This document shows positions 4,749-53,745 of a DNA stretch of 64,000 nt, piece after piece. The first letter of the stretch is position 1, and each line of letters opens with the position of its first letter. Location of the stretch: contig CANLXH010000002.1 in assembly GCA_947495075.1 (NCBI GenBank), forward strand, positions 1,240,001 through 1,304,000. The letters are read 5' to 3'. The notes under the pieces are model-generated. The model was not told where the DNA came from, ran no database searches, and saw nothing but the letters and a program-made list of their open reading frames with translations. The translations under genes were made by a program, and so were the position numbers. Origin of the DNA: an uncultured Croceitalea sp. (GTDB taxonomy: Bacteria > Bacteroidota > Bacteroidia > Flavobacteriales > Flavobacteriaceae).

Positions 4749-7112
4749 TCAATTTCTAGATGCCATTTTAAGCTGTAAATTTTGCTGAATTCTATTCCCA
4801 TTATCATCGACAGCTGTTAGTACATATTCACCTGGTTTTACAGTATGCAAAAGTTCATGAATATTGGTAGTAGAAGTGATGTATGTATCGTCTAAATACC
4901 AATGAATTTCAGTTTCTGGTTGTTGGTGCGCTAGCTTAAAAATTACTTCTGAAGATGAATTTCCTAAGTCTCTTGAGAGCAATACTACTTCATCCTTTTT
5001 AGGGTAAATGAATTCCATTAATGAATTTTCTAGTGTAGAACATCCATCTAAATAAGGTGGAAGCACTCTGTAATTAGTATTAGAAGTAGCATAATAATAT
5101 TCGATTCCTGTGGGTAAGCTAAACCAATTCTTATATACCATATTTTCTAAGGGATAACAAGCAGAATTAACTCTGAATTGCATTGAGTTATCTAAAATCA
5201 CTTGTTTATGATAAGGACATTGCTTTGTTTTTTCACCATTACGCGGCTGTAATTTTGTTTCTATCTCTTCACAGAAAGAAGAAGCTATATAACCACTTTT
5301 TTTACATGTTTCTAATTCGGTTAAATCATCAAAAGGTTCTTGGAACGATTTGCTTTTTGGTAAAACATCGAGCATATCAAATAAGATAGGAGCGGCAGCT
5401 GTAATTCCGGTAAGTCCTGGTCTCCCTTCACCATCCGCATTACCTACCCAAACACCGATAGCGTATTTTGATGTAACACCAACTGCCCAAGCATCTTTAA
5501 ACCCAAAACTAGTTCCAGTTTTCCAAGCTATGGGTTGTGACTCGTTAAAAAATTGCCAGTTTTCGCCACCTTCTGGTCGGTTAACTTCTTGCAAGGCTTC
5601 GGTCATATGATAAATAGCTCCAGCATTAAAAACAGAAGCTTCGAAAAGTGTTTTTCCAAAGTCTGGTTGGTGGTTGAATAAATAACTGGGTTCTACAAAT
5701 TCGTTAGAGCGATAAGTACTAGAGTTGGAAACAAAATAATTCAATATTGATGCAGATGAAGCATATGTTTTAGTAACATCCCAGAGAGAACTTTCAGCAC
5801 CGCCTAAAATTAGTGCAAGTCCATAATGGCTAGCGGATTTATCAATGGATTTTAGATTGGCTTTTTGGAGTTTGTTGTAAAATTTTTGAAGACCATATGA
5901 TCTTAATAACCTCACTGCAGGTACATTTAAAGAACGAGATAGGGCTCTGCTCGCAGGTACTACACCTGCATATTTTTTATTAAAATTTTTGGGATTATAC
6001 CCATTTATTACTGTTGGTATGTCTTTTACTAAAGCATCTGGAAGTAATTGACCTTCATGCAATAGAGCGGCAAAAAGAAATGGTTTTAGAGTGCTGCCAG
6101 TGCTTCTATTTTTAGTGATGATATCTACATAATTTCCATGTGCTTTGTTTGAAGCCGAATTTCCTACATAGCTAAGTACTTGTCTTGTTTCTATGTCTAA
6201 TACGAGTATGGCTAGATTATGTATTTCATTACTTTCTAAGCGTTGATGATGAATAGAAGCTATGTTATTTGCATTTAATTGTAATTGCCTGTCTATAGAG
6301 GTTTTAATTCGTTTTCCAGGATGTTCTTTTTTTATGCGTTCCATAAGATGTGGTGTTATGTTTGGGAGTGCAAGTGGTTTTTGAGGTAATGGTTCAGAAA
6401 GAGCAAGCTCATGTGTGGTTACATCAATAACTTTTTTAGTTAGTAATTTATCAAGTAATCGATTACGCTTATCCAATAGCAGTTTTTCATTCTTACCTGG
6501 AAAAATAAGAGAGGGTGCATTGGGTAATACGGCAAGCGTAGCGGCTTGGCCCCAACTTAATTCTTGTGCAGGAATTCCAAAGTAGCGCCAAGAAGCAGTT
6601 TCTAATCCTACTACATTTCCGCCATAAGGGGTATGGGTTGCATATAGCTTTAAGATTTCATCTTTAGAATGCCTGAATTCTAATCGTGTCGCCATGAAAA
6701 TTTCGATAACTTTTTCAAAATAAGTCCGACTTTTGTTTTTTCTGCTTAAGCGAATCACTTGCTGTGTAATAGTACTTCCTCCACGACGGGTTTCCTTGGT
6801 AATGTTGTGTTTTATGGCGTTGAAGATTGAAATTGGATTAAAACCAGGATGCTTGTAAAAATATTCATCTTCAAAAAGCAAAACACTTTGCTTAAATCGT
6901 TCGGGAACCGAATCCATTTTAGGGAAGCGCCATTGCCCATCATCGGCAATCCGAGCTCCAAGCAAAACATTATCGGAACTGGTTACTACTGTTGAAGTGG
7001 GTGCTGTAAATAGCTTTTTAGGTAGGCAGAACAGCCATACCACAAATACAACAGCAAAAAAAGAAAGTTTTATGCGGTGTTTTTTTAAATATGTGTAAAA
7101 CTTTACAGACAC
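4749..7112 (-). CDS. pbpC: penicillin-binding protein 1C
   Basis: Bifunctional peptidoglycan synthase: a glycosyltransferase (GT51) plus a transpeptidase. One N-terminal membrane anchor (residues 15-30). The GT51 domain has catalytic Glu81 in the FEDEYFYKHPGF segment and the RRGGSTITQQ motif (109-118). The transpeptidase shows SxxK at 340-343 (STLK), SxN at 394-396 (SLN) and KTGTS further on. The C-terminal 90 residues fit the beta-sandwich BiPBP_C domain typical of PBP1C. The next gene downstream in the same orientation is the alpha-2-macroglobulin, the classic pbpC partner. At 787 residues it is full length. Confidence 0.95.
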   Translation of the reverse strand: MSVKFYTYLKKHRIKLSFFAVVFVVWLFCLPKKLFTAPTSTVVTSSDNVLLGARIADDGQWRFPKMDSVPERFKQSVLLFEDEYFYKHPGFNPISIFNAIKHNITKETRRGGSTITQQVIRLSRKNKSRTYFEKVIEIFMATRLEFRHSKDEILKLYATHTPYGGNVVGLETASWRYFGIPAQELSWGQAATLAVLPNAPSLIFPGKNEKLLLDKRNRLLDKLLTKKVIDVTTHELALSEPLPQKPLALPNITPHLMERIKKEHPGKRIKTSIDRQLQLNANNIASIHHQRLESNEIHNLAILVLDIETRQVLSYVGNSASNKAHGNYVDIITKNRSTGSTLKPFLFAALLHEGQLLPDALVKDIPTVINGYNPKNFNKKYAGVVPASRALSRSLNVPAVRLLRSYGLQKFYNKLQKANLKSIDKSASHYGLALILGGAESSLWDVTKTYASSASILNYFVSNSSTYRSNEFVEPSYLFNHQPDFGKTLFEASVFNAGAIYHMTEALQEVNRPEGGENWQFFNESQPIAWKTGTSFGFKDAWAVGVTSKYAIGVWVGNADGEGRPGLTGITAAAPILFDMLDVLPKSKSFQEPFDDLTELETCKKSGYIASSFCEEIETKLQPRNGEKTKQCPYHKQVILDNSMQFRVNSACYPLENMVYKNWFSLPTGIEYYYATSNTNYRVLPPYLDGCSTLENSLMEFIYPKKDEVVLLSRDLGNSSSEVIFKLAHQQPETEIHWYLDDTYITSTTNIHELLHTVKPGEYVLTAVDDNGNRIQQNLQLKMASRN

Positions 7113-7208
7113 TAATTATGTTCTAAAGATTTGTGGATTCAAGTACTTCAACTATTGTTCTCGATACATTTTAATATTAAAACACTCGAACTGATGGTTA
7201 TTTCAAAT

Positions 7209-10200
7209 CTATCGAACAACCTTAATCCATTGCCCTATATTTCTGGCATAACTCGTATTGTCATACATGGCCTCTACTTGGGCTCCTGGTAAATAATACT
7301 CACCTAAGAACGAAGCGTTCAATTTTATAGTAAACGTTTTACTTTTTTTAGCTCCTAGTCCAAAATATAAATTGGTACGGTCGTCACGTGTGTCAATATA
7401 ATCTGCATTGCCTGAGTTATTATTAGCTCCATCAACGTATGAAGTATTTACAATCTCCCAGCCGCTCGGTACAATTTGAGTTAATGCTAAATTCTCGTAG
7501 CCATCGTTAGTTGTATTATAAACAGTAATCTGAGCTTGTAGTTCAGTTCCTTGCCTTAGTTCGGTTACGTTAATTGATTTCCCTACGGCATCTAAATAGT
7601 TAACTTTGATATTTAGCTTTTTTTGCTGCTCCAATTCCTGTCCTACAGGTAATTTACCACTTTGGGTAAGGGTAGCATAAATCACATTATTCTGATTATT
7701 TTTTACAAAGAGTTGTCCTTCTTTAGAAGAAATAGCAACAGAACGTTGTGCAATTGCTCTATCCGTTTTAACCGTTGTCTCTTTACCATTATTAGTAAAT
7801 ATGATGTTTATGGATTTACCACCATTTTTACCAACCATTTTTGCCATGGCCAATAAAGCATAAGAAGTTTCCTGTGTGCTAGACCATCTTTGTGAAGAAA
7901 GGTTCTTTGCCAGTGAGAGTGCTAAATCACGTTGTTGGCTATCACCAAGGAGAACCATTGTCTCCAGAGCCATAGCACGATTTCTAAACACAGAGCCATA
8001 AGTTCTATAATCGTAAGAGTTAGGCTTAAAGTTGATGTTTGCAACCTTAGTTAATTCTTTAGCGATTGCTTCTTTACCCACTAATGCATAAGCTGCCGCC
8101 AAACGCCATTTGGCTTCGTTACTTAAATTCTTGGTTTCTCGTAACCTATTCATAGCCGCTAACTCAGGTTGTTGTGCTAGCGCTAAAGTATATAGGCGAT
8201 ACGCTTGTGAGATGTCATCATTATACCTAGTGGTTTGATTACTCCATTGTTTAGATGCATTTTTCTGATAACGCAACCAATTACTTAAAAAAGTCAATGG
8301 TAATTGATATCCTTTTTGTTTGGCTTCTAATAAAAAATGTCCTGCGTAAGAGCTACCCCAATCATCTGCATAGTTATAACCAGGCCAATAGCTTAAACCA
8401 CCATTTGGTGCTTGAAAATCACTTAATTTTTTAATGGCACTTTTGATGTTTTTTTCAATCTCTTTTTTCTTCTCAAAAGTAATATCCACTATATCGGCCA
8501 AGAATAGTTGTGGAAAAGCTGCTGAAGTAGTTTGCTCTACACAACCATGTGGATATCTGACTAGATATTCTATTCTTTTAGAGAAATCCATTGGAGGTAG
8601 CGTAGAGAATTCAATGAAAGCCGAATTAGTACCAGAAGTTCCAAAAGTTGAAAAATCAATTGTTTGCGATTGATTTTCTATTATCGTATATAACGAACTT
8701 TTTGTAGTTATCGGATTAGGGTTTTCAACATCAATCTCTGTTTCACTGGTCGCTTTTTCTCCTGCTCCAGAAGCGCTCACTTTGATAGTTTGAAATGATT
8801 TTGTTGGATTTACCTTAAAGTCAAAATTGACAATTTGCTCCCCAACCGAATTAAAGGTGATGTTTTTAGAAGTAGCCCCAATAGGTTCTAATGAATTTCC
8901 AGCATCAATACTCACTTTTACATTTTTTACTTTTTTCTCCATAGCAAAAACTGTGACTGGGATGGTAACTGTTTCTCCTGGAGATAGTTTTCTAGGAATA
9001 GAGGTTAAAACCATAAGAGGTTTACGAACAGGAGTAGTTTTATCCGTTTTACCATAAGCACTTTTAGCATTACCAGCAATAAGCATGGTACGCACAGAAC
9101 CTACGTAATTTGGCATTTGTATTTCATGAGTTGCTTTATCGCCTGCTTTTAAGGTGAAAGGTCCCAAATAAGAAACAACAGGCTTAAAACGTTGTGCTTT
9201 TCGGTTCTTGCTACCTTCTGCAATACCACCACCACCAATAGCATAAATATTATCTACACTTATAGAATAGGCACCCATGACATCGTCAAAAATGTCAAAG
9301 GTTTTTACCCCTAAGGCTTGCCTTGCATAGAATGAAGAATGAATATCTGGCGTTTTAAATCGGGTTAAATCTAATAATCCGTCATCAACAACAGCGATGG
9401 AATACGTCATTGGTTTTTTGTTCGCTTCTGAGACTGAAACCTTAAAGCTTTTTTCTGGCTCTAAAACATCTGGCATTTGTAGTTTAGGCGCTAAAAATGT
9501 TGCTGGATTTTCAACTAGAATAGGCACAACACCGTATAATCTAATTGGTAAATCATTGACTACTTGGCCATGAGGTTGTAATAGTGAAATATTAATGTAA
9601 GCATTAGGCGCCATTTCCGCCGTGATAGGAATGGTAGCTTTGGTTTCTTTTGCTGAGGTTTCTATCCATTGTGTAGAAAGTACTTCAGAACCATTTTCAA
9701 TACTTAACAATGCACGTCCACCTTTGTCAGAAGCAAAAGTTACCACGGCATTTTCACCCAATTCATATTTTTCTTTATCTGCTGCAAACAGTAATATTTT
9801 AGAACTTTCCGTATCGCCAGAGGTAGGTCTTCTCCACCAGTTTCTGTAGAAATACGCTGTTCTTCCTGTGGCATGACCAGAAACTTCATCAAACACGCGA
9901 ATTAAGTAGCGACCACCGTCATCATCAGAGATATTTATATTAAAATTCCCTTTACCATCAGCTCCGGTGTTAACGGTCATTTCTTTAAATGGTCTATGAA
10001 CCGTTGCGTTTTCATATCTAGATAGATTGTCATAACCTCTGTTCCACCACCAGCGCCATTCAATCTTAAATACTTTTACTTTCAATTTTCTATTAGCTGC
10101 AGGTTTACCTTCTTCTGTTACTGAAGCCACATCAAAAGTGGTATTCTCATCCGTTAAAAAGGAACCATACTGTTTTGCTTCTGGAGAACGTAATCCTACA

Positions 10201-49043: not shown

Positions 49044-49587
49044 TTACTGAAACAAAACATACCTAGGTGGTACCAACCTATTTAGTCGTATATGTACCAG
49101 CATTTGTGCTCGGTGATGCGTGATATAATCTGCAAGCAGCATAAAAATTTGACGTTTTGTTCTATCCAAACCAAAATAATCTAGCCTATCTTCTAGTTTG
49201 GTGGTATCGAATTCTTTTAGCAGCTTTGCGGTGGCATCAAAAGTCTTTTCCACTAAGTCAATCATCTCTTTTTTAGACTTGCCTTTTACCTTAAAAATGG
49301 TGTCCGTTTGCCAAACTCGAGCTTCTCGTCCACCTAAAAGTGACTGGCTATGCCAGTCCATAGCATAGGCGATATGCAACAGGTTTTGGGCAAAGCTTAA
49401 CGATTCTGGTGTTGCTTTAAAGTTGTAGTTATCCTCTGGCATGGTCTCTGCCAAAAGAACCAAATATTTTTTGGAGTTTTCCAAACGCTCTACAAAGTCT
49501 CTGATAAAGTTGTCTTCTTGTGCAAATAGCTGTGAAGAAACGAAGCTAAAGAATAAAACTATATATTAGAATTAATTGTTGTTTCAT
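49044..49587 (-). pseudogene. exported DinB-like protein, frameshifted in its signal peptide
   Basis: The DinB/DUF664-like four-helix domain is intact (NSKKYLVLLAETMPEDNYNF, HIAYAMDWHSQSLLGG, YITHHRAQMLVHIRLNRL). In frame upstream is IVLFFSFVSSQLFAQEDNF, the second half of a signal peptide, but it has no start in that frame. The ATG at 49587 begins MKQQLILI in the next frame. Removing one base from the AT run near 49561-49571 joins the two into a normal signal peptide. Otherwise translation must start at an internal TTG (49484) without export. May be real decay or a base error. Confidence 0.7.
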
Positions 49588-49645
49588 AATATTTAATTTT
49601 ACTCGGAGCTCATAAGTTCAATATTAAAACTAATATATAGGTATT

Positions 49646-51973
49646 TTATCCAAGTTTAGTTATTAAAAAACCCTCTATTAGCTCTACTGATTTTTTCCAA
49701 TTATCATTTTCCTTTAACTGTTTCTTATAATCTGGATGAATATATATTCTTAACCATTGTAAATGTGAATCAAAATAATTATTTATCCCGCTTACTATTC
49801 CAGATATGTCAGTGAGCTTTGCAACAGATTTATCATATTTTACTACATTAATATCTTTTCCCAATTTTTTATTCTCATCTCTTGGGATATCTATTAGTAA
49901 GTTAATCTTATCTTTTTCGAAATTGATAACATTAGAAAGTCTATTTTCTAATTCAATTCTTAACTCATCTAATTCAGAATACTTCATACTAGCGACTCTC
50001 TCACAAATACCACTTAAAACACTATCCTCTTCAGATTTGTTAATTATATAAAGACGTTTGAAGATACGGGGTCTTTTTGCATTTATTAGGTTTAATAAGT
50101 TTAATATGTCAGGTTTCTCTAAGGCAAAATCTTTGAATATTTTTAATAACTCATTTGGAGTTGCGAATAAAAATTCATCAATAATTTTACTTTCAAAATC
50201 ACTTAAAGATGCAAGTTCAAAAATAATTTGTTTAAGCATAGCTGTATATGCTCTATTGGGTTGATTCCAATATATGTTTTTATAAAGCCAATATCTTGCT
50301 GAAATGACTTGTTCCACAGAACTAACACCTTGACTTTTTATGGCAATTTTATTGTTATAAACATCTAAAAAGGCAACAAGACTTTCAATATCTAGTTGAA
50401 AGCCATTGGACATCCCTAAATGATGGGGGTCTCTTTGGAGGAAATCTAGTACTCTTACATCAATTGAGGAATTCAATAAAGAATATATTATTTGTACTTC
50501 CTGATTTTCAAAACCACTAGGAGATCCACATATGATTTTTTTTACAAGTTCAATATCTATGTTATCAAAATGTTCATTGATAGTATCTAATAAGCTATAT
50601 TTAAAACCATTAGATTCTTCTTTGTAATTAAGTACTTTATGTAGTAGATTTTTTTGATTAATATTTTTTAAAAGTGATTTCTCAGAATTTCTTAGTTCAT
50701 GAATTGCAAAGGAAAATGGGAATCGTGTTGAATTTGCAAGTAGAGAAGAAATTAATGCTAGCTCGAGTAAATCTTTGCTAAATAATTCAATAAACTTTTC
50801 TTTTTTTAATAAACCAATTAATACCCTTCGCATGTTTTCATATGTTCCTAAAAGATGCTCATACCTTGTATGATTAGAACCAGGAAAGATTATTGAGCCC
50901 ATTAATAGTTGAGGGACATTTTTTAATCTTATTAAAGAGGGATGATTGGTTATTTTCTTTACTCTATATGTGAATAATACATCATTTAAAGGGATTAACT
51001 TCTTCCAACTACCTCCATCCGATTCGGAGAGTTCTGGTAGGCCAGCAATAGTCCTATGGATCGGCCTTACACGTTCAATAGCTCTTTCTAAGTCTTCTAA
51101 TGAATAATATTTTTTCTTTAAAACAGAAATCAATGCGTTTAGCCAAGAGTGTTCACTCTTATCTGTCATGGATATGCGTAAGATTTTTTCAATACACTTT
51201 TCAAATGTTAATTTTACAGAATGAATATCCCAATTAGGCTGTAATTTTTTGAATACTTTAAAATTTACTTTTTTGTTTTTTATTTTGAGTACCTCTTCTG
51301 GCATATAAGCACTGGTGCCAGTAACTAATAGTTCTTTAGTATTTGCCATTGCGCTACTCCCTAAAGTATGTCCTACACCTAAGTCTCCAATAATTACATG
51401 GAAACCTTCACTTGTAAGATTAATGAAGATATTTTTAGGAGCAATATCACAATGAAAAAATTTTCTGTTATGTAAATAAATTAATCCATTAAGGATTTGT
51501 TGAAAAAGATCAAAAATTGACTCATGATTTTTAAAATACTTTTCTTTTGTTTCGTTGTCTTCAAATATTTCTTCAAGTGTCTTGCCGGAAACAAAATCTG
51601 ATACAATGTAGGGTATGTTTACTTCATCTCGATTATAGTAACCTCCATCAATAATTTTTAAAATGTTTTGATGATTGAACTTTGATATATTTACAATCTC
51701 ATCTTCAAAATTTATTGAGGAAATATATTTATCCAGTGATTTGATTAAGTCATCTTTGAAAACAAAAAACTTAATGGCTCTGGTAGTTGCAACTTCTGGA
51801 ACGAATTCTTGATTTACTTTGAAGACAATACCGGACCCTCCTTCTCCTAAAACAATATTATCAGAATTTTCATCTTTTTGAAATTTATAGTTATCTATTT
51901 TAATATTTTTTATTGATAAAAGCTCAGTTCTTGTTTTTTTAGCCATTGATTTTTTAATTATACCAACCATCAA
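49646..51973 (-). CDS. Ser/Thr protein kinase fused to degenerate SAMHD1/dNTPase-like HD domain
   Basis: 775 residues, soluble. Residues 30-300 form a Hanks-type kinase: LGEGGSGIVF (42-51), Lys68 in AIKFF, catalytic HCDIAPKNIFI (174-184), DLG at 197-199 and MPEE (224-227), all compatible with activity. Residues 330-580 follow the SAMHD1/COG1078 dNTPase pattern: NHPSLIRLKNVPQL, FPGSNHTRYEHLLGTY (first His present), IDVRVLDFLQRDPHHLG (metal Asp kept) and ARYWLYKNIYWNQP. The central HD pair is missing: LLANSTRFPFSF stands where LCHDLGHGPFSH is expected. The C-terminus (600-775) is unassigned. Start could also be 51970 or 51946. Stands alone beside a repeat cluster. Confidence 0.85.
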   Translation of the reverse strand: MMVGIIKKSMAKKTRTELLSIKNIKIDNYKFQKDENSDNIVLGEGGSGIVFKVNQEFVPEVATTRAIKFFVFKDDLIKSLDKYISSINFEDEIVNISKFNHQNILKIIDGGYYNRDEVNIPYIVSDFVSGKTLEEIFEDNETKEKYFKNHESIFDLFQQILNGLIYLHNRKFFHCDIAPKNIFINLTSEGFHVIIGDLGVGHTLGSSAMANTKELLVTGTSAYMPEEVLKIKNKKVNFKVFKKLQPNWDIHSVKLTFEKCIEKILRISMTDKSEHSWLNALISVLKKKYYSLEDLERAIERVRPIHRTIAGLPELSESDGGSWKKLIPLNDVLFTYRVKKITNHPSLIRLKNVPQLLMGSIIFPGSNHTRYEHLLGTYENMRRVLIGLLKKEKFIELFSKDLLELALISSLLANSTRFPFSFAIHELRNSEKSLLKNINQKNLLHKVLNYKEESNGFKYSLLDTINEHFDNIDIELVKKIICGSPSGFENQEVQIIYSLLNSSIDVRVLDFLQRDPHHLGMSNGFQLDIESLVAFLDVYNNKIAIKSQGVSSVEQVISARYWLYKNIYWNQPNRAYTAMLKQIIFELASLSDFESKIIDEFLFATPNELLKIFKDFALEKPDILNLLNLINAKRPRIFKRLYIINKSEEDSVLSGICERVASMKYSELDELRIELENRLSNVINFEKDKINLLIDIPRDENKKLGKDINVVKYDKSVAKLTDISGIVSGINNYFDSHLQWLRIYIHPDYKKQLKENDNWKKSVELIEGFLITKLG

Positions 51974-52113: not shown

Positions 52114-52143
52114 TTGCTGTAGATGTTTGTAGTGCAAAGGAAG

Positions 52144-52348
52144 AGATTTCTCACGCTCACTACGTTCAATTCGAAATGACGGTATTTTCGGTTTCAGTCA
52201 TTTCGACATAAGTAGTTTTACTACGATTGAGAAATCCCACGTAAAAGGTATACTTGGACGGGGCTGCCTGTTCTGTTTAGGCAGGCTCAACGTAACAATG
52301 TTTAAAGTATTAGATTTCTCACGCTCGCTACGCTCGGTTCGAAATGAC
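52144..52348. repeat. cluster of interspersed palindromic repeats
   Basis: Three copies of one element: 52144-52180 and 52312-52348 (both AGATTTCTCACGCTC-x-CTACG to TTCGAAATGAC, differing at few bases) and an inverted, more diverged copy at 52197-52236 (GTCATTTCGA to TTGAGAAATC). Between them lies a separate hairpin, CTGCCT / AGGCAG at 52264-52284. This is the REP-like element widely seen between flavobacterial genes. No coding potential is visible in 51974-52356. Confidence 0.7.
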
Positions 52349-52356
52349 AGCTAATT

Positions 52357-53745
52357 TTATTTGAATACAGTTGCTTTTAGCTCAGCAATAATTTCTGTGC
52401 TAATCCAGTAAATATCTTGCTTGCTGGTATAGAAAAAGTATTTTCCGTCTTGGGTCACAAAAGGGCAGAGCTCATGACCTTCAGTATTTATTTTGTTCCC
52501 CATGTTTGCAGCGGTCGACCAAGAACCATCGGCTTTCTTAAAACTGATATAGAGGTCGCCTCTACCAAGACCTTCTCGTCTTTGTGCACAAAAAATTAAA
52601 TAGGTCTCGTCTGGGGCAACAAAAACATCGGCTTCATAAGCATCGGTATTTATAGCATCACCCAATCTCATCGCTTTTTGAAATTCCCCATTCACAAATT
52701 TGGAATAGTAAATATCATGGTTCTTGTTACTTTCGTCGCTGTAAGCATCAGTAGCAAAATACATAGTACCCTTATTGGTGAACGAGATGTAGTATTCTTC
52801 ACTACTCGTGTTGATGTTAGGTCCTGCATTTATAGGTTTAGACCAACCATTTTCTGTTCGGTTTACATACCAAATATCGATATCTTTTTGTTCTCCGATA
52901 CCGTCCATTGCTTGGTTAGAAATAAAATATAATCTGTTCTCGTCAGGTGATAAAAAAGGATCGTTATACCCGTACTCCTCATGAGAAAGTAGGATTCTTG
53001 GAGAGCTCCATTTGTTGTCTTTCAGTTCTGCGTAGCGTATCTCGCTTTTTCCACCAGTGTCTACACCATAATAGAATTCGGTACCATCCGCATTAAAAAC
53101 AGAACCAAATTCATATTCTTCTGTAGAGATAAAATTAGACGCAAATACTCTGGCTGTATTCCCAGGGGGTTCTTGCCCCATAAAAGGTCCCTTTAAAATG
53201 ATATTTTGAACTAGTTTTTTGTCTGCCCCGCTCTCGGTAAGCCAAGTAGCAATTTCATTGGCTTTTGTTTTCTGTGCAATTGTCAAAGCGGTATTCCCTC
53301 TTTTGTTCTTTGCATTGATATCGACTCCGTTGGCAACCAGCTGTTGTACAAAAGCGAGGTCTTTATTTAAAACCGCCTTAGCCAATAACTCACCTCCGTG
53401 GCGTTTTTTCCATTTAGTGTTAGGTTGTAAGGCCAATATCTTATTAAAAAGAGACATATTTTGAAAACGTACCGCCATGTACAAAGGGGTAACACCATCA
53501 TTATCTTCTGTAGTTACTATAATCCCTTTAGCAACTAGGTACTCAAAAATCTCTTTTTTGTTGCAACCCACTGCCCAGTGTAGCAAGGAACGCCCTCGTT
53601 CGTCTTGAGCATTGATTTCTACTTTTTGTAATAAACTATCTAAACGAGCAATATTTCCTTGGCATACGGTTCTATATATGTTTTGGGCATTACTGGCGAA
53701 GCAACAAAGTAATAGCAGTGTTGAAAAGGGTAGTAGCGATTTCAT
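52357..53745 (-). CDS. secreted ankyrin-repeat / PD40 beta-propeller protein
   Basis: 462 residues. Signal peptide (LPFSTLLLLCCFASNAQ). Ankyrin repeats at about 30-185 (DERGRSLLHWAVGCNKKEIF, DNDGVTPLYMAVRFQN, NKRGNTALTIAQKTKANEIA). Then a WD40-like PD40 propeller (210-455) with SPDENRLYFISNQA, SFTNKGTMYFATDA and VAPDETYLIFCAQR repeats. Both parts bind proteins or ligands; no catalytic residues are seen. Outside the cytoplasm by its signal. Confidence 0.88.
   Translation of the reverse strand: MKSLLPFSTLLLLCCFASNAQNIYRTVCQGNIARLDSLLQKVEINAQDERGRSLLHWAVGCNKKEIFEYLVAKGIIVTTEDNDGVTPLYMAVRFQNMSLFNKILALQPNTKWKKRHGGELLAKAVLNKDLAFVQQLVANGVDINAKNKRGNTALTIAQKTKANEIATWLTESGADKKLVQNIILKGPFMGQEPPGNTARVFASNFISTEEYEFGSVFNADGTEFYYGVDTGGKSEIRYAELKDNKWSSPRILLSHEEYGYNDPFLSPDENRLYFISNQAMDGIGEQKDIDIWYVNRTENGWSKPINAGPNINTSSEEYYISFTNKGTMYFATDAYSDESNKNHDIYYSKFVNGEFQKAMRLGDAINTDAYEADVFVAPDETYLIFCAQRREGLGRGDLYISFKKADGSWSTAANMGNKINTEGHELCPFVTQDGKYFFYTSKQDIYWISTEIIAELKATVFK

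Follow-up and report, generated by a model that had tools for sequence, protein, structure and literature searches.

The window analysed here, a 64,000-nucleotide stretch from an uncultured Croceitalea sp. (contig CANLXH010000002.1, positions 1,240,001 to 1,304,000), carries a gene for a protein kinase fused to a SAMHD1-like domain whose catalytic residues have been replaced. The same replacements occur in a distant genome, and the altered domain is the most conserved part of the protein. We read the fusion as a horizontally spread, single-gene signalling protein in which an active-looking kinase is regulated by a non-hydrolysing, ligand-sensing pseudoenzyme of the SAMHD1 type, and place this reading at about even odds (roughly 0.5). 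On this reading the former enzyme probably now serves to regulate the kinase, perhaps as a sensor.

A kinase joined to a SAMHD1-like domain with altered catalytic residues

The fusion is encoded on the minus strand by a genuine open reading frame (ORF) that starts either at an ATG (49646-51946, 766 aa) or at a TTG at 51973, which adds 9 aa. An earlier, sequence-only reading had given the longer form, 49646-51973, with no strand; because DNA homology to a second copy in Balneola (see below) begins one base ahead of the ATG, we favour the shorter one. Residues are numbered here from the ATG, and the Lys68 and Asp176 of that reading, counted from the TTG, are Lys59 and Asp167. The gene has a guanine-plus-cytosine (GC) content of 28.5%, against 35.0% for the window.

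The N-terminal kinase domain (51047-51859, minus strand; residues ~30-300, the end at ~300 being an estimate) matches Pfam Pkinase at 3.5e-21 (76.2 bits, cut-off 31.7; residues 41-236 in TTG numbering, 32-227 from the ATG). The core residues of eukaryotic-type kinases are present (K59, E83, D167, N172 and D188), as is Asp240, and judged by its residues the kinase looks active. The claim that all residues needed for activity are kept stands for these five but not for the catalytic-loop lysine of Ser/Thr kinases, which is Ala169 (HCDIAPKN) in both the window and Balneola proteins and Lys in all five other fusions that we found. We take this loop to resemble the catalytic loop of tyrosine kinases. 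In PADLOC, a library made up of defence models only, the top profiles for the kinase part were mad6 (7.4e-24) and PD-T4-6; many PD-T4-6 profiles match the kinase region only (25 of the 29 PADLOC families listed).

That the C-terminal region follows SAMHD1 and COG1078 was borne out at the level of both sequence and fold. It comprises a pseudo-HD core (50207-50986, minus strand; residues 321-580), 85% identical to the Balneola copy, and a C-terminal part (49649-50206, minus strand; residues 581-766) that aligns with the C-terminal lobe of SAMHD1/EF1143. Searched with phmmer against PDB sequences, the protein matched 2hek (2.7e-19), 2q14 (3.5e-18), 2o6i (1.8e-11) and SAMHD1 (2.7e-8), and the motifs IDVRVLDFLQRDPHHLG (495-511) and ARYWLYKNIYW (550-560) are both present. 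Pfam HD_assoc_2 matched residues 528-755 in TTG numbering (1.5e-7), while Pfam HD (PF01966) gave no match up to E 1, as expected for a protein whose HD motif is gone. The predicted structure matches SAMHD1, EF1143 and COG1078 structures across residues ~295-766, the match running to residue 759-766 in most of the comparisons listed; the predicted local distance difference test score (pLDDT) is below 50 over 601-663.

Residue roles were taken from the parts consulted of PMC7045340 and PMC7311409, human SAMHD1 numbers being transferred by spacing onto an alignment with pig SAMHD1. In the alignment the metal ligands H167, H206, D207 and D311 correspond to H364, A404, N405 and R498, so that three of four are replaced, and the catalytic residues H210, H215, D218 and H233 to R408, F413, H416 and Q431 (N430 in another alignment), all four replaced. 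The proposed change of His-Asp to Ala-Asn is thus one of several. Most of them lie in two segments on the minus strand: LLANSTRFPFSF (402-413; 50708-50743), which holds A404, N405, R408 and F413 and is identical at these residues in Balneola, and IDVRVLDF (495-502; 50441-50464), where Asp311 has become R498, Lys312 V499 and Tyr315 F502. Much of the pocket remains. The phosphate contacts R164 and R366 are retained as R361 and R551 (K312, now V499, is the third), and the deoxyribose and base contacts Q149, L150, D319 and Y374 as Q346, L347, D506 and Y559; RYEH (361-364; 50855-50866, minus strand) contains the equivalents of both Arg164 and His167. By its residues, then, the protein has lost the machinery of hydrolysis and kept sugar contacts and two phosphate contacts. 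The inactive SAMHD1 double mutant H206R/D207N has often been used for structures with bound deoxynucleoside triphosphates (dNTPs), according to the part consulted of PMC7045340, and therefore loss of the HD pair need not abolish binding.

The positions of SAMHD1 Asp137, Gln142 and Arg145, counted on the alignment, read Asn334, Ile339 and Lys342. We take these three to be residues of the allosteric GTP site, retention of which is not evident here. The suggestion of a nucleotide sensor agrees with which residues of the pocket remain and which have gone; the part of it that invokes allosteric GTP binding is not supported.

The altered domain is conserved and the gene has been transferred

A Balneola metagenome-assembled genome (MAG; loci L009, L039 and L041) holds a copy at 76% identity with identical replacements of the catalytic residues, which excludes a local mutation for this branch. 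It was the only close copy found when genome contigs were searched with two peptide patterns; four further loci (L042-L045) were rejected as close copies, being kinases with no HD part in the ORF. Between the window and Balneola genes the proportion of synonymous differences (pS) is 0.81, which is saturated, and that of nonsynonymous differences (pN) is 0.152. Regional values of pN are 0.173 in the kinase (30-230), 0.215 in the linker, 0.093 in the HD domain (321-580) and 0.165 in the tail. The dead HD domain is therefore the most constrained region of the protein and is under strong purifying selection.

The fusion gene has moved horizontally. When the window was compared with the 22 kb Balneola locus, DNA homology (72.4%) was confined to 49631-51947, almost the gene only, and stand-alone HD proteins of the two genomes share 42% identity. 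The Balneola copy is likewise AT-rich (GC 30.1% vs 38.7% for its locus). An empty-site comparison with one genome of the window's genus (G304) matched just 65 flank bases, and the flanking protein was not found there in a search run without a positive control.

Loss of the HD pair marks one branch of a small fusion family

We counted as fusions only proteins with kinase and HD parts in a single open frame, and found seven distinct ones in genome samples that partly overlap. Pkinase and HD_assoc_2 were detected in all seven, as were the kinase residues K59, E83, D167, N172 and D188. The HD pair is intact in five of them (L040, L069, L083, L087 and L088), each of which the Pfam HD model matches (one slightly below cut-off), against neither of the dead pair. 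H206, D207 and D311 are retained in these five and in 56/56 stand-alone proteins. That set is what remains of 60 ORFs after removal of identical regions; many of its members are closely related, one of its loci is from a plasmid and a few are viral, and it represents only part of the matching genomes (30 loci for 278 genomes). Another 11 of 11 viral proteins keep the three residues, but the patterns used to fetch them favour the motif and they are not to be counted. Judged by these sequences, loss of the pair is a trait of one branch and not of the kinase-HD architecture, which, by the test that the sequence-only reading had set itself, weakens that reading in so far as it concerned the architecture. 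The His210 position is Gln in three of the five intact-pair fusions (L069, L083 and L088) and the His233 position in one; the catalytic site therefore drifts even where the HD pair survives.

Among the matches listed for the phylum sample, fusions occur in 3 of 395 genomes (G000, G038 and G047; 278 genomes matched, and weaker fusions may be missed). Counts for narrower or other groups were 2/341 in the class of G047 (G047 and G457) and 1/244 in the class of G038 (both E up to 1e-25), 1/20 in the order of G457 (E up to 1e-40), 2/68 in the phylum of a Hydrogenedentota MAG, and 1/349 in the window's own family (E up to 1e-32), this one being the window gene itself. For a Thiotrichaceae MAG, the 299 genomes of its phylum yielded none at E up to 1e-25, and no matching frame there was longer than 599 aa. 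In a tree of HD domains (54 of 73 rows, near-copies removed) the seven fusions lie on one side of a weakly supported branch (75/68), and the joining of the dead pair to the others was marked as perhaps an artefact of long branches. What chiefly suggests a single fusion event is the domain order common to all from end to end.

No plasmid or phage record spanned 80% of the query, and the records listed hit the kinase or the HD part only (plasmids 30 of 34, or 12 of 46 with the L069 query; phages 9 of 9, or 6 of 14 with the L083 query). A Thermomicrobium plasmid match (H42) was rejected as a fusion, being a stand-alone HD gene. One fusion, L083, lies on an IMG/VR contig. Of four viral scans, one returned no relatives, another four loci including L083, a third four loci among which that fusion reappeared (as L089), and the fourth 29 loci; ORF length pointed to a kinase fusion in none of these, nor did Pfam in the two checked with it, L112 and L110. 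Two HD proteins on viral contigs carry long parts without a Pfam match at E 0.01: ~300 aa ahead of the HD domain in L112:1571-3874 and a C-terminal part in L084:3020-5515.

Gene neighbours

Four of the seven fusions have a restriction-type, phage or recombinase neighbour. In Balneola, a protein with two restriction-type domains, GmrSD_N (1.1e-12) and HNH (9.5e-7), is encoded 80 bases downstream on the same strand (L039:10593-12137). The two genes might form a cassette; the GmrSD_N-HNH protein has weak similarity to PADLOC NsnA (6.1e-9). The L088 fusion from Hydrogenedentota overlaps a downstream N6 DNA methyltransferase gene by four bases (Pfam 5e-5; PADLOC Type II MTase 4.7e-32, mad2 6.1e-13). 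Upstream of it, in the same orientation and across a 0.9 kb gap, are genes for class II ribonucleotide reductase and ThyX (the region as a whole is L088:6371-15269). The L083 fusion (5479-8079) sits amid phage portal, head protease, terminase-like, Sak4-like and integrase genes, and L069 has a serine recombinase at 0.6 kb. No neighbour of these kinds was found for L040, which is 0.3 kb from a contig end, or among the ORFs examined around L087.

The window gene stands alone, as had been noted. It lies between a DinB-family gene and an ankyrin/PD40 gene, and tblastn, confined to the window, found no GmrSD-HNH or methyltransferase partner. The ankyrin repeats and PD40 beta-propeller belong to a single protein (52357-53745). 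Upstream of the fusion gene are two 45-nt direct repeats, 84% alike and 168 apart (52136-52348), probably the repeat cluster mentioned earlier; their 34-nt core occurs just twice in the window at up to 3 mismatches. An inverted repeat with 25-nt arms, 80% complementary (49552-49647), reaches the stop codon of the fusion gene and is perhaps a terminator.

Possible function

We propose that the C-terminal pseudoenzyme would act as a ligand-sensing and oligomerising module that regulates the kinase without dNTP hydrolysis. The deoxyribose contacts are kept while arginines replace a metal ligand and a catalytic histidine, which suggests that the old pocket binds a deoxynucleotide, or a ligand related to one, without metal; that the protein is a deoxynucleotide receptor is a reasonable guess from the retained pocket. 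A shift in ligand, for example during phage replication, would then switch the kinase; its target would belong to the host or the phage, or would be a partner protein in those loci that encode one next to the fusion. The surroundings of some relatives make a defence role plausible, and they are the only, indirect support for the earlier proposal of a function in phage infection; in the window the gene stands alone, and the proposal is not supported in the form given.

Several observations weigh against this reading. The predicted model is poor over the kinase part (pLDDT mostly <50), the mad6 and PD-T4-6 matches carry little weight since they come from an all-defence library and cover the kinase part only, and the top NCBIfam match is a PASTA kinase at 68 bits against a cut-off of 450. 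Equivalents of Q149, R164 and D319 occur in 72, 72 and 71 of 72 other family proteins and may be structural. The catalytic site of SAMHD1 H210A was without nucleotide (PMC7045340, part consulted), and the window protein lacks this histidine too, although it has Arg in its place; the phosphate contact Lys312 is lost as well. The window gene lacks a partner or defence neighbours, L040 and L087 lie amid ordinary genes, and the count of 4/7 has no random-gene control.

The loss of the His210 and Lys312 phosphate ligands would also suit a dead domain that serves as a scaffold only, oligomerising the kinase or binding nucleic acid or protein around a nucleotide-free pocket. SAMHD1 itself assembles into dimers and tetramers (PMC7045340), and oligonucleotides can occupy its allosteric sites (PMC7854603; both from parts of the papers). 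A mere scaffold would sit less easily with deoxyribose contacts and two arginines that stay while metal and catalytic residues change, or with an HD core under tighter constraint than the kinase, and we regard it as possible but doubtful. A travelling regulatory kinase unrelated to phage defence, sensing for instance the cell's own dNTP or stress state, would fit the isolation of the window gene amid ordinary genes and the reductase and ThyX genes near L088; the gene is, however, patchy, AT-rich and transferred, and relatives adjoin a GmrSD_N-HNH gene, overlap a methyltransferase gene, lie on a phage contig or neighbour a serine recombinase, so that we consider this unlikely.

Strong conservation across two copies is what a domain that had retained or gained enzymatic activity would display, but with only one metal ligand of four left, and none of the four catalytic residues, this is very improbable: the SAMHD1 variants H206R/D207N, D311A and H215A are each inactive in the parts consulted of PMC7045340 and PMC7311409. 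Least probable of all is a decaying gene whose HD motif was lost by drift. The dead pair does sit on a long branch of the HD-domain tree (4.08 changes per column), yet decay is already contradicted by the open frame, the intact kinase core, the substitutions common to both copies and a pN far under pS and lowest in the dead domain.

SAMHD1-type enzymes are antiviral in animals through draining dNTPs. A bolder version of the sensing reading, which we hold only tentatively and think rather improbable, is a mobile family of immune kinases that read the dNTP pool, the dead branch acting as a receptor for deoxynucleotides that needs no metal and switches the kinase once a phage has altered the pool, and the other branches still degrading dNTPs. 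If so, sensing and depletion would be variants of one kinase-HD architecture. More generally, a natural pseudo-SAMHD1 controlling a kinase would reveal the use of the SAMHD1 fold as a regulator and offer a testable route by which bacteria sense phage takeover of nucleotide metabolism. The family, small and with both intact and dead branches, would let one trace how an enzyme turned into a regulator. A laboratory likeness is the H206R/D207N mutant, which held dNTPs uncut in crystals (PMC7045340, part consulted).

Comparison with known systems

The fusion protein shares with SAMHD1, EF1143 and COG1078 proteins (4lrl, 2o6i, 2hek, 2q14 and human SAMHD1) the fold, motif order, deoxyribose contacts and the R164/R366 arginines. 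Unlike them it lacks the HD pair, Asp311 and His210/His215/Asp218/His233 and has a kinase attached, and it differs from SAMHD1 at the putative allosteric GTP site positions. As far as sequence tells, it is a homologue of dNTP hydrolases and not a working member, and dNTP hydrolysis is expected to be absent. With the intact-pair fusions it has in common the order kinase-linker-HD-tail and a conserved C-terminal HP motif; these keep the HD pair and the catalytic-loop lysine, unlike the window protein, to which they are 19-23% identical.

The defence kinase PD-T4-6 is a stand-alone kinase. Likeness to MAD6 of the MADS system is restricted to the kinase (mad6 profile 29-236 of 659), and with 48 bits against a cut-off of 460 for the MADS6 model (NCBIfam NF047741) the window protein does not score as MAD6. 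Among the matches listed in the open-licence literature, which excludes subscription papers and most preprints, none described a protein that joins a kinase to a SAMHD1/COG1078 domain, and the terms 'HD domain' and 'SAMHD1' are absent from the main text of a paper on PglW, the type 2 BREX kinase (PMC12839542). PglW is a parallel in design: it too combines a kinase with a degenerate domain of a nucleotide-binding type and, in the part consulted of that paper, is proposed to be a sensory hub, although it differs in having a nuclease, winged helices and an inactive STAND domain. In principle, then, it is already known that a defence kinase can carry a degenerate sensor-type domain.
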